From Rhododendron vialii (Eukaryota > Streptophyta > Magnoliopsida > Ericales > Ericaceae), in the NCBI RefSeq assembly GCF_030253575.1, contig NC_080560.1, forward strand, positions 42,547,001 to 42,611,000: a stretch of DNA of 64,000 nt, read 5' to 3'. Both the position numbers and the translations under genes were made by a program. This document shows, piece after piece, positions 1,999 to 58,122 of the stretch. The first letter of the stretch is position 1. Each line of letters begins with the position of its first letter. Under the pieces are notes generated by a model. That model was not told the DNA's origin. It did not search any database and saw only the letters and a program-made list of their open reading frames with translations.

Positions 1999-4780
1999 AG
2001 TAGGCACAACTTGGGGGGCAAAAATGGAATGAAAGTTCAGTTCAGAATAAAGTTGCAGATTTGCAGATCCACAACTACAAGCAGAATTGGGAGAGAGATA
2101 TGAGGAGGGTGGTGGGGAATTTCTTTAGTTTCCGAAAATACCCTCCTAAAGAGAGCAGAGGAGAGAAAGAAAGGAGCTTTTTTTGGGGGAGGCTGAAAGC
2201 AAGAATTGTTGAAAGTAATGATTCTCTCTCATCACTCTTTTATCTTTCTTACTTTTATGCTGTGGAGCAATCTGTAATTTGTATTTGTTTTTCCCATTGA
2301 TGTAGAAGGAGCTTTAGTATATTGTCATGGATAATGATGTTAATTAGTCAGACCCAAAAACTGTCTTTTTGCATTTTCTTTTGTTTGATTCTTGATGTCG
2401 TCAAGTATAAAGTTTGATTACAACAATTAGAATATTGATTGATATAGTTTCTAGTTGCGCAGCGAATTGAATTGGACATGATCAATACCCATGCGTTCTT
2501 ATGAAAAATCTTATGCAATTCCAGCTTTTACTATATGTATATCAGCCGATACGTAACGGTTTTTTGCCCTTTCGAATTTTATTACACTCCGATAAACGGT
2601 GATATGAAAAATCGTGAGCAGATTGGCTGGTTTCCTTTGGGTATTGGTCAGTTTCTGATTCACGAACCGGTTCACGGCTATTATGGCGGATACTCGACCC
2701 GTTATGAGTGATTTTTAGGCACTAATTTCTTCTTCTTCTTCATCTTGTTATCAGAAATGAATTTCAAGAATTCACACAAAAAAGCATTGCAATCGATACC
2801 CGTCTTGCATTGTTCAATACTCTCGATACCGTTCTACCGCGACCATTCCGTTCATCTTATTTTCGGTGGAGAAAGCGCTTCCATTGGTTTCCAGGCACAA
2901 CCGAATAATAAACTAAACTTTTGCTGGGAAAAAAACACTTGCGTTTTGGGAGTATCTCTATTCTTTCTACTACCCATACCATTTGGCGCTCAGTATTTAT
3001 GAGCTTCTCAACCATTTGTGAAATTGCGGACTTGGAGAAAAAAACCAACCACCAACTAGGCAACCACTATGGTCAGACGAATCAATTTGGGGATGGGTTC
3101 TTCTTCTTCTTCCAACTAGAGGAGATAAAGAGATAACTGTGTCAGTATTTTTACAGACTTGCATGTATTTGTACATCATGGAAGCATCTAGGAAAAGGTT
3201 CACGTTTTACACGTGGACAGGCCTAATACGTTGAAACCACGTTCTCAATATTCCCTCGAACCCATCTGGTTTTGCAATTGAGCCGCCCATGTCGGCCCAT
3301 CTCCAATTCACTCCACACGTATATAGTACATGTTAGTACCAGCATCATCGATGTTGTTCCATTAGTTCGATTCGATGAGCCCCGCGTGATCACGAGATGT
3401 CAACTGCTTTGGTCTGTTGTGGTACTCTGTTTTCTACTCGAACGCTCAATTCTCAAAGGAGTCTTGTTAGCATGGATCTTCGACAATGCGCATTCTATTT
3501 GGGGTTCAACGATAAGCGAGAATTTAAGAGAAAGCGGGGATCACTTTTTCTTGTTTGCGTGAACGTTACATACCCTGTAAAGCATATTTGAGTAACTCCT
3601 TTAAAGGATTTATTCACCACATAAATTAGCACACACTTTGTTTAAAAAAAAAAAATTTTGAGTTTTATACGAGCCACATTTTTTGCCAACTCAGAAAGAA
3701 GCCAGAAGAGATATTCTTAGCCTAGAATGCTGTTTGTTATCATGGCGAACGGGACAATGACTGGGCTTTTGTTTCTTCTTTTGTGACTCATCCTTTACTT
3801 TCACGATCGAAGAATGTTGGTACTTGGTAGTGGTGATTGAGCAAGGAGTGCTTTGGCCCTTCTTCACAAACAAAACAAAAATGTTACGGATACACGCGAA
3901 AATGAACAGATTCGAAAATAAATGTATTCTGAATCGTCTAATATGTGTGACCCGCAACAACCAGACTTGCGTAAATCAAATAGTTCCGGATACATCTGTG
4001 TCGTCTACATCGTTATTTTCACAACTCCATCACTTTAACTGATTCCTTTTATCCTTCAATGGCCTCTTAATTTATTCATCAGACTTGAATTTCTGATTAT
4101 GGGAACTTAATAACAACATTTTTGTTTAACTTTAATAGAATCATGTTGAATTCAAATCAAGCCTTTTGAACAGTTCCTTTCTTCCCCATAACAGAAGAAA
4201 TTTCCCTAACCTTGATGGTTCTTTTGTGACGTGATTATCTACCTATCAAGATTTATTTGGACCACCCAATCTCTGAAGCTGGAGTGCTGGAGGATTGGAT
4301 TGGTGTTAGCCTTTTTTTTTTATGGTCAGAGGTGTCCGAGCCAATTTACAAGAACCTTAACTAATTAATCTCTTTTTCTGTTTCCTAGTTTGGTCATGCA
4401 CTCCGAGACAAAAATAAAAAATTCGCAAGAATTTTTTTCTTACGGACTGATTTCAGTAATCAAACCTTGATCAATTATATGGGGAGCAAACCTAACAACT
4501 AATAACTAGACCAATTGGTGTTAGCAACCTAGCATGTCTTTACTTTCAACCTTTATACATAATTTTTTTTGTTGTGTATACCCCTTTTGGGTTTTAAACA
4601 GCGATGTTCAGAGTCTAAAAATAAATGGCTGTGCAGTGTGATGATATATTAAAGAGAGGCTCAGAGACATGTGGGTGTGTGTTATTAGCTGGGTGCCATG
4701 CATCTTTGTTCCTGTGGGGCCTAATCAAAATTGGCAGCAATACCAAAGGTGTCCAAAGAGGAAACGTCACGGGTCTACCA
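1999..4780. other. Intergenic; 3' UTR of the proline-rich gene, then no gene seen
   Basis: The first 300 bases are probably the 3' UTR of the proline-rich gene. The rest is AT-rich, with short poly-A/T runs and only short random ORFs (longest about 96 codons). No family was recognised on either strand. Confidence 0.5.
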
Positions 4781-6324: not shown

Positions 6325-6504
6325 AATCTGTGTTTTTTTAATCGGCAAAATAACATTTTATTAATGGTGGAAAGGGTAAAAGGAGATTTCAGCTAAGGGT
6401 TGGAAATTACAGGCCAGTAAGAACTAAGCCCAAACACTTGTAGAAAGATGAAGCCCAAAACACTAGTGGGCTTAAAATGCCCAGATAATACAATAAACAC
6501 ATAA
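6325..6504 (-). mobile_element. 3' tail of a retroelement (LINE-like), interrupted by a Mutator-like element
   Basis: Read on the minus strand, this ends in ...AATAAAATGTTATTTTGCCGATT followed by a poly-A run, the style of plant LINE 3' ends. The sequence appears to continue at 8887 on the other side of the Mutator-like element, because the duplicated target AAAATCCTA is shared. Classification as a LINE rests on the tail only. Confidence 0.4.
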
Positions 6505-6513
6505 AAAATCCTA
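6505..6513. repeat. Target-site duplication AAAATCCTA (left)
   Basis: The exact 9-bp match is at 8878-8886. Together they bound the Mutator-like element. Confidence 0.75.
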
Positions 6514-6740
6514 GGGGTTCTTACTGGCCGGCCCTCTTTTGTCATTGTTTGCCCATCCAAACCCATCACATGTCAAGTCCATCCCACACAAGCCCGGTTT
6601 TAAGTAAACAGCCGAAAATACCCTCACCTCGTCTCTTAGCTCATACGCCGACCAAATACGTTCCACCCAAAAGGCGAGCTTCAGATCCGCCTCATCTCTC
6701 TACCTTTCTGCGTCCTTCCCCCCTTAAAACCTCTTTACGC

Positions 6741-7092
6741 TTACATCACTGGCTTCCGATCCCACGTGGTGCCTGACAAGCTGCTGATGGCGGCGGACTT
6801 GAAGAGCTTGGCGGTAGGGATGGCGTTGGCGACGCTAGAGCCGGGGAAGTAGCTGGGGGTGACGAACGTCAAGTCGATGATCAGTATCAACAACGTGAAG
6901 ATCAGAAAAAGAGCTTTGATTTGGCGTATAACCCCAAGGTCGTGGTTCATGGACTGTCGGCACCGTTTCCGCACGTTCACGGGATTTTGGTGCGGTTAAA
7001 AATGACGGTCCGTATTTTCCGTCGACAAATATAGGCGTGATGTGGCGGCACCTACACTGGTGGTTGAGTCGGTGGAGATTGAGGATCACCAT
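6741..7092 (-). pseudogene. Gene-like fragment inside the Mutator-like element, unidentified
   Basis: GC-rich block with two overlapping reading frames on the minus strand. One encodes a basic stretch followed by a strongly hydrophobic helix (about 20 residues, IKALFLIFTLLILIIDL) and then a Ser/Ala-rich segment, the look of a type II membrane anchor. The other frame upstream (7092-6835) may be the same captured sequence after a frameshift. I do not recognise the parent gene. Start codons here would be non-AUG in part, so it is probably not translated as such. Confidence 0.3.
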
Positions 7093-7244
7093 GGCCTATG
7101 AGATCTGTAATTGAAGTTTTACTCTGTTTCTATTGATTGGAATAAAACCCTCACGTACAGTTGTAGCTTTACATGGTTTACGGTACATGCTTGTTCTCGC
7201 CAGCGGTAAGAAATTAGGCTTTTTAAGTGTGAGGGTTTGTTCAA

Positions 7245-7735
7245 GGTGTGAATTGTATAATTTGGGGTGTGAATTCTAGAGTCTGACAGTGCAATTTGAG
7301 GGTGTGAATTCTGGAGTCTGACAGTGCACTTGAGGCGTGAATTCTAGTGTTTGTTTTGGTGGCTGAAATTTAAGGTTTTTGGTGTTTGTTTGTTTTTTTT
7401 TTTTCTAAGCATCTGGTGTTTGTTGTTGACGACGGGGCGTTGGGACTTTTTTGTAATTTAGTGGTGTGAATTCTGCATTTAGAGGTTTGAATTGTGTCGA
7501 TGAATGTGAATTTTGAGGTGTATGAATTATGAGGCGTGAATTCTATAAAAGCGTGTGAATTCTGGTAGTGTGAATTCTCTTGATGTGAATAATATAGATG
7601 GGGTGTGAATTCTGTAAAGAGGTGTAATAGTGCATATATGGTGTAAATTCTATGGGTGTGAATTATGTGTGAATGTGAATTCTATGGGTGTGAATTTTGT
7701 AAAGGTGTGAATTCTGTGGGTGTGAATCCTAGAGA
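7245..7735 (+). repeat. Dispersed GTGTGAATTCT motif array, block 1
   Basis: Many near-copies of (G)GTGTGAATTCT, each containing an EcoRI-like GAATTC, spaced about 10 to 50 bases apart and all in one orientation. At 7260-7345 longer units containing GAGTCTGACAGTGCA are repeated about every 50 bases, so the array seems to have grown by tandem duplication followed by decay. Confidence 0.8.
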
Positions 7736-7752
7736 TGAAAGCTTGATCCGTC

Positions 7753-7863
7753 GGCAGAGACTACGGTGGTAGAGGCGGCAGGAACTACGGAGGCTGTGAC
7801 GGTTATGGTGGAAGAGGTGGTGGAGATTACGGAGGCAGCGGTGGCTGCACACCGAATATGTAA
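7753..7863 (+). pseudogene. Glycine-rich protein C-terminal fragment captured in the element
   Basis: An open stretch encodes a Gly/Arg/Tyr-rich tail (GRDYGGRGGRNYGG...) of about 36 residues that ends in a stop at 7861-7863. The RGG/YGG pattern matches the C-termini of glycine-rich RNA-binding or cold-shock domain proteins. There is no RNA-binding domain upstream, so this is a fragment and not a complete gene. Confidence 0.5.
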
Positions 7864-8014
7864 GATGCAGCTGTAACCTGGAAAGGAGAAATGGAAGAAT
7901 TAGTGGAAAGGAGAAAGGGAAGAGTCAGTGGAAGGCAGGGGAGATTAATTTTTTATTTTTTTTGAATTCATAGCTTTTCGTTTTTTTTTTTTTGTTTTTT
8001 TGGTGGTATGTTTT

Positions 8015-8755
8015 TTTTTTGAAAGGTGTAAATTCTTAATTTGGTGATGTGAATTTTTTTTTTTTGAGGATGTGAATTCTTTTTTTTTTTTAAAGTGAAT
8101 TTTTTTTTTCCAAGAGTGTGAATTCTTAATTTGGTGATGTGAATTCTGGATTTGTGCTCCGGAGGCGTTGTTTTCTGATCATGAATTGATGGAACACAGC
8201 GCCATTCTTGGCGACGAAGATAGATAGAACGTATCGAAAACAGAATTCACCTCGTTGTGAAAGTTGCTGATGGGAGCCATTGAGACACGGTTGTTTTCGG
8301 AGATTAACCAACCTTGAAAATCTTTGATTATGTTTATTATTACTAGTATAAAGTAGAACCAGTAGATGCAGTTTATTATTTTTCTTATGCACTTGGTTAT
8401 ATATGTAGAATGACTAGAATTAATTTTAAAAAGTTATTCGGTGAATTCTTACTTTTTCGAAGGTGTGAATTTTTAATTTGGTGTGAATTTTTAATTTTTC
8501 ATTTGGGTATGAATTCTCTCTTTTTCAACTGTGTGAATTCTGCAAATGTTTGTGAATTCTGTAAATGGTGTAAATTCTAAAAAGACGTGTGAATTCTGGA
8601 GGTGTGAATTCTACGAATGAATGTGAATTTTGGGGAGTGTGAATTCTGCAAATGAATGTGAATTCTGAGAAATGTGAATTTTGGGAGGTGTGAATTCTTG
8701 GAGGTGTGAATTCTTGGGGCTTGAATTCTTCAAAGGGATGTGAATTCTGAGGGAG
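8015..8755 (+). repeat. GTGTGAATTCT motif array, block 2, with poly-T tracts
   Basis: The second cluster of the same motif lies at 8040-8150 and 8435-8750, split by about 280 bases of non-repetitive sequence. The minus-strand ORF at 8525-8788 is merely the motif translated (recurring QNSH / EFT / IHT) and is not a gene. Confidence 0.8.
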
Positions 8756-8886
8756 TAAAAAGTGACCAGGGCAAAATAGTAAAAACATTTTTAAAAAGGG
8801 TCTAGATTGAATAGCACTACAAAAAAGAGTTTAGAGGGGATAGGAGGAAAAAAACAGGGCCGGCCGGTAATTTCCTGAAAATCCTA

Positions 8887-9350
8887 ACCCACAAAAGTAG
8901 ATTTGGCCCAGCCCAAAAAAAACCAAAACAAAGCTCTAAACTAATGAAAAAAATTCAGCACAGCCGTCCAAACCACCGCCCACCAATCCAGACTGATGAC
9001 CACCACCATCACCGCACAGCCACCTCCATCAGCCCCAAAACCGCCACTGGTTAACCGAAATGGAGGGACACACAGTGCACCGAACAACCGAGTTGCCGTG
9101 GAAGCTCAACCCATGCCACTAGGCGAGCACCGTGGCACCCAACAGTAACCACGGCGGGAGCCACGCCGACCCAGCCGCCCAACCCACTCGATCCCCTTGC
9201 CGTTAGGCCAAATATCAGAAACCCAAGAGTAAAACCAACCGGATATCGAGCAAGATAGAGGACCACAGCCGAGAAAGGAAGCGGAGGGGAGAGATGCCGG
9301 AAAAGAATAGATCCAACAGAAACCTTGATCACACGGCATTCGCTCGAGCG
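8887..9350 (-). mobile_element. Retroelement (LINE-like) fragment, right-hand part
   Basis: Continuation of the element whose 3' tail lies at 6325-6504. On the minus strand it has GGT/GTGG-rich sequence like the leader or linker of plant retroelements, then reads toward GGGCTGGGCCAAATC. No reverse-transcriptase motif is legible, so the assignment is by continuity and composition only. Confidence 0.35.
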
Positions 9351-51966: not shown

Positions 51967-52532
51967 GGGCAAATTTTCGTAGTCGTCCCTGTAGTTTTAC
52001 GGTTGTCTCACTTTCGTCCTTCTAGTTTCAAAGTGCTCCAATTTCGTTTCTGTAGTTTGTTTTACGTTCCAAATTGGTAAAATCGTTAACACCGTTAACG
52101 AAACTAACGGAAAACAAAAAGTGTTCCAATTTTCAATCCGTTTGAACCGGTGCAAATATCTTATTTTTCTGATCATTTTATCTTAAATGGTCACAATGGA
52201 TTTTTGGCTCTAAGGCTTTTCAATGAGTATCCTAAGAGAGCCTTGAAACTAAATAAGAAGTCTTCGGGTGCTTGTTGAAAGGCCTTAGAGCCAAAAATTC
52301 ATTACGACCATTTAGGATAAAATGATCAAAAAAATAAGACCTTCGCACCGGTTCAAACGGATTGAAAATTGGAACACATTTTTTTTTTCCGTTAGTTTCG
52401 TTAACGGTGTTAACGATTTTACCAATTTGGAATGAAAAACAAACTACAGGGACGAAATTGGAGCACTTTGAAACTAGAGGGACGAAAGTGAGACAACCGT
52501 AAAACTACATGGATGACTACGAAAATTTGCCC
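51967..52532. mobile_element. Foldback Mutator-like MITE, 566 bp, perfect 9-bp TSD
   Basis: TTTTAATAG lies at 51958-51966 and at 52533-52541. The ends GGGCAAATTTTCGTAGTCGT and its inverse match perfectly over the first 18 bases. Arms of about 250 bases pair along nearly the whole element (for example CAATTTTCAATCCGTTTGAACC against its inverse), leaving a loop of about 60-70 bases around 52225-52285. No ORF. Confidence 0.9.
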
Positions 52533-57710: not shown

Positions 57711-58122
57711 GGACTGGGGGAGTGTGCTGCACAGCTACGTGTTGTGCGGCCGCCGGCGTCACCTTGCCAGCATTGGTCCGACGATCGGAGACATCCACTA
57801 TGTAGAGCTTGTCGAGTACTACAAATGTACCCAAAAATCAACCCAATCAAATATCGTTAAGTACTTCATCGGAATACATATAACTTGGAAAAAAATGAAT
57901 CCTAATGGATATGAAACACTCGATCAAAACCATTGAATCCATTCTTTTCGAATTATATGTGTTCCAAAGAGGCACTTAACGATATTTGATTGGGTTGATT
58001 TTTGGTACACTTGTAATACTTGATGAGCTCTACGCAGTGAATGTCTCCGATCGTCAGGCCGATGCCGGCGGCCGCACAGTACGCTGCACAACACGTAACT
58101 GTGTAGCACACTCTCCCTGTCC
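57711..58122. mobile_element. Foldback MITE, 412 bp, perfect 9-bp TSD GATTTCTTA
   Basis: GATTTCTTA lies at 57702-57710 and 58123-58131. The ends GGACTGGGGGAGTGTGCT and, reversed, GGACAGGGAGAGTGTGCT begin arms of about 190 bases. The arms include GCGGCCGCCGGC, GACGATCGGAGACAT and AATCAACCCAATCAAATATC. They differ by two small compensating indels. The 9-bp duplication suggests Mutator-type mobilisation. No ORF. Confidence 0.9.

Follow-up and report, generated by a model that had tools for sequence, protein, structure and literature searches.

A probable Pack-MULE-type element family with conserved motif arrays in Rhododendron vialii

In the portions of the literature drawn on here, VANC proteins are described as anti-silencing proteins of Arabidopsis VANDAL elements that target motif arrays (PMC5735166), and the inverted repeats of VANDAL elements are described as short and degenerate or as lacking altogether (PMC6446971). 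According to a passage in a review, VANC-like genes that carry Ulp1 and reside in non-TIR MULEs are strongly conserved in eudicots (PMC13317346). How Pack-MULEs, which shuffle gene pieces, evade silencing for long enough is not settled. The VANC domain DUF1985 has the Pfam accession PF09331.

The element studied here lies in a window of DNA from Rhododendron vialii, that is, the whole stretch of 64,000 nucleotides that was analysed. It is probably a non-autonomous, gene-capturing Mutator-like element of the Pack-MULE type, derived by fusion and furnished with the arrays described below, and it belongs to a large family in the genome of this plant. A preliminary description of the locus as a Pack-MULE-like insertion is mostly correct, and had missed the arrays of TGTGAATTCT. 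In this family, gene cargo that varies stands together with motif arrays that are conserved, a combination that offers a concrete test of escape from silencing.

Borders, inverted ends and the interrupted repeat

The insertion and its flanks comprise the following features.

6331-6513, minus strand: left part of the interrupted older repeat (genome matches; strand inferred from the A-rich end)
6505-6513, unstranded: left target site duplication AAAATCCTA (exact copy)
6514-6627, plus strand: left terminal region, which starts GGGGTTCTTACTGGCCGGCCCT and recurs in other copies (copy comparison)
8856-8877, plus strand: right end AGGGCCGGCCGGTAATTTCCTG, found in diverged form in other copies (inverted-end pairing and copy comparison)
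8878-8886, unstranded: right target site duplication AAAATCCTA (exact copy)
8887-9298, minus strand: continuation of that older repeat on the right, over the extent matched by the repeat copy L093 (flank comparison)

The borders of the element were confirmed at window positions 6514-8877 (2.36 kb), where the preliminary description had placed them. Its claim of a Mutator-type insertion with exact 9-bp duplications and 15-bp inverted ends is borne out by the two copies of AAAATCCTA and by the GC-rich ends, in which TTACTGGCCGGCCCT (6521-6535) and the stretch 8856-8870 form a 15-bp inverted pair with a single mismatch. Further out, the terminal 7 bp of one element end do not match those of the other, and the inverted ends of this element are short and degenerate. 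An exact 9-bp duplication falls within the 8-11 bp that define a MULE, and the ends, which have similar counterparts in other copies, agree with the TIRs or VANDAL-like degenerate ends of that class. The element had been described as lacking a transposase, and indeed no ORF of at least 120 aa was found inside it and none of the 8 interior pieces submitted to Pfam gave a match, which agrees with the Pack-MULE definition of an element without an internal transposase gene; Pfam and PDB searches with interior and cargo pieces returned no accepted family.

As a control, the window was searched for 15-bp inverted pairs that have no more than one mismatch, whose arms are separated by 300-6000 bp and which are accompanied, no more than 10 bp outside, by an exact 9-mer. 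Three loci in the real window have this arrangement compared with 0 of 20 dinucleotide shuffles, a lenient control in which each shuffle held a mean of 30.6 inverted pairs vs 167 in the real window. Because the shuffles contain fewer inverted pairs, the ends common to other copies are the stronger proof of an element. Elsewhere in the window, long inverted ends starting GGGCAAATTTTCGTAGTCGTCC with exact 9-bp repeats TTTTAATAG at 51967-52532 mark what is likely a second Mutator-type element, and a third inverted-repeat locus at 57720-58114 has exact 9-bp repeats GATTTCTTA directly outside its arms.

Both flanks belong to one older repeat interrupted by the element, because other copies of this repeat run on across the site, as had been supposed from the window itself. 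The left flank (6331-6513) has matches in at least 40 genomic rows, one of them the window itself (81 candidates, of which 40 were scored), and six loci from these 40 rows, the window's own among them, were compared. Three of the five other repeat copies (L091, L093 and L094) also match the right flank from 8887, after 3-6 intervening bases; in L092 and L095 the repeat matches end before the insertion site. L091 has a single AAAATCCAA where the window has AAAATCCTA twice, and L093 and L094 are more diverged at this position. The preliminary description had called for an empty site with a single AAAATCCTA; L091, L093 and L094 are paralogous, not allelic, empty sites. The repeat itself is presumably LINE-like, and its strand is likewise assumed from the A-rich end.

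Within the interrupted repeat, positions 6402-6424 match, in inverted orientation and at 22 of 23 bases, the outer parts of the two element ends placed together (hairpin z -2.23). Initially read as a remnant or filler, an interpretation that was set aside, this stretch has a diverged form in related repeats, and the copy in the window differs from the majority base of these repeats at 5 of the 12 positions scored within the stretch, compared with 18 of 156 elsewhere (p 0.013). The inverted element end, some 90 bp distant, possibly served as the template for the change, but the case is weak.

A family of copies and the origin of its cargo

The genome searched comprises 532.6 Mb in 13 contigs. 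The element has matches in at least 105 rows (40 of 346 candidates scored), and a 20-base pattern of the left end, allowing up to three mismatches, was found 222 times genome-wide vs 41 times for the reversed control, with 8 matches exact and 30 carrying one mismatch. From the 105 matched rows, 20 stretches were examined; 12 contain both ends and, together with the window, give 13 complete copies of 1,410-3,209 bp, so the expectation that other copies with the same ends would exist in the host genome was confirmed. Outside these counts stand L074, a gene-like locus, and L075, L077, L079, L081, L085, L088 and L089.

All 13 complete copies share one plan, in which the left end is followed by variable gene-like cargo, motif arrays and the right end. 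An exact, flush 9-bp duplication borders five of them (the window, L070, L078, L082 and L083), and a 9-bp duplication with one mismatch borders L080 and L086. The duplication of L073 measures 8 bp and is displaced by one base, that of L084 measures 9 bp and is displaced by 4, and no target site duplication was found in 4 of the 13 complete copies (L071, L072, L076 and L087). Movement of the element would have been by cut and paste, and very probably relied on a MULE transposase that was encoded elsewhere in the genome and acted in trans.

Two copies have neighbours of a different kind. About 1.8 kb from one copy, L076:2126-3232 contains a MuDR-type transposase N-terminal frame (PF03108, PF00564), followed at 3649-3930 by a frame that we take to be transposase-like; the locus is possibly a trace of an autonomous relative. 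Beside another copy, open frames at L083:7535-9899 match a viral movement protein (PF01107) and DUF7746/DUF7588 and are probably an endogenous plant-virus relic. In viral contigs, the motif-array pattern had 0 matches; the end pattern had 61, none of them similar beyond the short GC-rich ends (best E 0.024).

The cargo of the window element consists of two pieces that meet at a junction.

6736-7133, plus strand: captured gene fragment, 81% identical to L074 (match to gene-like locus)
7730-7734, unstranded: junction of an L071-type left part and an L072/L073-type right part (copy comparison)
7753-7863, plus strand: glycine-rich coding-like block with a stop codon (also in L070, L072 and L073)

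The first piece is 81% identical to L074, on contig 9, with its sense on the plus strand of the element; this match supplies the host gene fragment by which a Pack-MULE is recognised. Neither family ends nor motif clusters were found in L074, whose open frame extends upstream of the shared part and is broken within it. Because it is without the ends and clusters and its frame continues upstream, L074 is the likelier source of the captured fragment, or a relative of that source. The L074 ORF matches the Pfam fasciclin domain with an E of 0.055 (14.1 bits vs a cut-off of 22) in the part of the ORF that adjoins the captured one. The captured fragment is accordingly, and tentatively, taken to be fasciclin-like, a weak assignment. 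A stop codon within the fragment is common to the window, L070 and L071.

The preliminary description had proposed a captured gene block here, and the L074 match upholds it, but the membrane-anchor-like frame assigned to that block lies on the wrong strand, antisense to the plus-strand fragment. The minus frame includes a hydrophobic stretch, is open and has high third-position GC, which 0 of 500 shuffles attained. A coding reading of the minus strand, built on 3-base periodicity and codon-position GC, was dropped because the L074 match puts the sense on the plus strand; the minus frame is a mirror of the plus-strand codons. The glycine-rich block, also described earlier, proved real, and the word at its start occurs in the window, L070, L072 and L073 and is absent from the other nine complete copies.

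Across the 13 copies the cargo forms nine groups: the window with L070 and L071, L072 with L073, L083 with L084, and L076, L078, L080, L082, L086 and L087 as single members. The sole cargo match between groups is a stretch of approximately 117-119 bp common to L083/L084 and L086. The cargo of L086 includes an EF-hand-like piece (E 8.4e-4) and that of L080 a DnaJ-like piece on the minus strand (E 5.7e-4), both under the Pfam cut-off, and eight other cargo pieces gave nothing credible against Pfam.

Positions 1-1018 of the element match L071 at 94%, and positions 1216-2362 match L072 and L073 at 84-86%. The junction (7730-7734) coincides with the motif that closes array 1; in L070, the words to either side of the junction share an overlap of a few bases. 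At a different site, L070 repeats the composition of the window element and is flanked by an exact duplication of its own. From these alignments, fusion of an L071-type with an L072/L073-type element is the best explanation for the two cargo pieces, and the fused element would have moved later, because L070 has this composition elsewhere with a separate duplication. The arrays would supply short homology where sister elements exchange cargo. The earlier suggestion was that at least two host genes may have been sampled; one piece matches the gene-like L074, and the presence of two pieces is best explained by the fusion of sister elements. Separately, the sister copy L070 contains an insert of about 936 bp (L070:4131-5066), with TGTAACACCCCGTCC at one edge and the reverse complement of this word at the other.

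Two other accounts of the element's structure can be set against the copies. If the two-cargo form were ancestral and the L071-type and L072/L073-type elements had been derived from it by loss, the shared ends and arrays would follow, but this is improbable; L072 and L073 have a different cargo stretch to the left of the glycine-rich block, the right part of L071 is only about 71% like that of the window, and loss alone can produce neither of these. The other account denies that the element is a MULE and takes the exact direct 8-mer copies of GGCCGGCC, at 6526 and 8858, for the 8-bp duplication of a hAT-like insert within older sequence. It is very improbable, since the 8-mers sit within ends that are common to copies at other sites, and since 9-bp repeats are flush outside the ends in the five copies named above; GGCCGGCC was rejected as the true duplication on these two grounds.

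Motif arrays and their possible role

Three arrays were located in the window element.

7247-7730, plus strand: TGTGAATTCT motif array 1 (motif scan)
8027-8147, plus strand: TGTGAATTCT motif array 2 (motif scan)
8440-8748, plus strand: TGTGAATTCT motif array 3, with its last motif starting 138 bp before the right end (motif scan)

With up to two mismatches, TGTGAATTCT occurs 43 times on the plus strand of the window element vs twice on the minus strand, and one of the two minus matches overlaps a plus match at a near-palindrome. Most spacings between motifs (35 of 42) are 14-26 bp, and the density, with both strands counted, is 19 per kb in the element vs 1.4 in the remainder of the window. 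Plus bias is present in 13 of 13 complete copies (23-43 plus vs 0-10 minus), and in all of them the last motif starts 138-140 bp before the right end. The exceptions in orientation among complete copies are L082, with 10 minus motifs, and L086, with 7. The incomplete L085 has 17 minus vs 13 plus motifs, and in the incomplete L089 a cluster of 16 minus motifs adjoins one of 26 plus motifs.

Each motif consists of a conserved core set between variable linkers. Around the GAAT anchor in the window (44 sites), the neighbouring core positions carry 0.98-1.79 bits, a C/T position 0.47 and the linkers 0.04-0.64; when the 13 copies are pooled (348 TGAAT anchors), the core carries 1.15-1.52 bits, the C/T position 0.55 and the linkers 0.03-0.59, with 0.82 bits for the G directly before the core. 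Units paired by their linkers are 83% identical in the core and 68% in the linker. In each of the 10 pairs compared, the core had diverged less than the linkers, in 6 of them with p<0.05, with the limits that the pairs are not independent and that array units may be misaligned. The remaining 4 pairs, the two closest among them, had no significant difference between core and linker, and in the pairs window element/L071 and L083/L084 the core is no less diverged than the DNA outside the arrays.

On balance, the arrays are somewhat more likely than not to bind a protein with sequence specificity, which an autonomous relative would encode. That protein may be an anti-silencing factor of the VANC kind, acting as VANC does in Arabidopsis to keep copies unmethylated and mobile, to which we give clearly less than an even chance. 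A VANC-like partner in R. vialii is plausible because VANC-like genes are conserved in eudicots, as a passage of the review has it (PMC13317346). A broader and more doubtful proposal is that anti-silencing of the VANC kind extends outside crucifers and is exploited by gene-capturing MULEs, with a TGTGAATTCT landing array, ending about 140 bp from the right end, that would keep the cargo open and mobile, and with arrays that would double as the seam for cargo swaps. If a protein of this plant that binds the TGTGAATTCT arrays were to strip methylation from the elements and their cargo, sequence-specific anti-silencing would reach beyond the Arabidopsis elements.

The arrays might have come about, or might be used, in other ways. 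They could be a neutral minisatellite grown by slippage and riding along with the element, a possibility that we consider less likely than not. The arrays do contain tandem higher-order units of 32-35 bp with 77-87% matches, and the two closest pairs are without a core-linker difference, both of which favour such an origin, but a 10-bp core bounded by variable linkers does not, nor does the fact that none of the 13 complete copies has lost the arrays, the prevailing orientation or the spacing of 138-140 bp. Subterminal motifs in CACTA elements serve as binding sites for transposition. Binding of the arrays by the transposase, or by a helper, in transposition itself is our next guess after anti-silencing, and an unlikely one; the constant spacing between the last motif and the right end agrees with it, but there is no comparable array beside the left end and the arrays extend more than 1 kb into the element.

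Comparison with Pack-MULE and VANDAL elements

The motif letters were also searched in papers, and among the matches listed none is on transposons by title. Among the papers listed in literature searches on these themes, no description was found of a MULE family that unites gene capture, conserved motif arrays and cargo fusion.

The likeness to the VANDAL/VANC target arrays of Arabidopsis, as the excerpts of two papers describe them (PMC5735166, PMC10398659), lies in degenerate ends, growth by tandem duplication, and densely arrayed words of 8-10 bp that mostly share one orientation and lie in noncoding DNA. Dense same-orientation arrays of a short motif in noncoding DNA are what we find here, with minus motifs in some copies. 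Unlike VANDAL elements, the window family has a different motif and carries gene fragments, no van genes were seen in it, and its host is probably no crucifer. Set beside the VANC21 and VANC6 motifs given in the published excerpts, TGTGAATTCT has no sequence in common with either, and the likeness to VANC targets appears to be one of layout, not of motif sequence.

Composite MULEs that are still mobile are also described, in a portion of the work on MULEs with multiple TIRs (PMC3310237), and resemble the window element in this respect. The difference from what is described there is that the seam of the window element is a short-motif array and that the fusion would join two types of cargo.

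With Pack-MULEs, as portrayed in parts of the published accounts (PMC8903248, PMC3310237), the family has in common that it is non-autonomous, has a 9-bp MULE-like TSD, has no transposase found inside, contains host gene fragments and carries cargo that differs between copies. Compared with the Pack-MULEs of those accounts, the window family has very short, degenerate inverted ends and an organisation common to its members, running from the left end through cargo and motif arrays to the right end. The element is of a known kind, in a variant that joins gene capture by MULEs to conserved motif arrays and to signs of cargo fusion.
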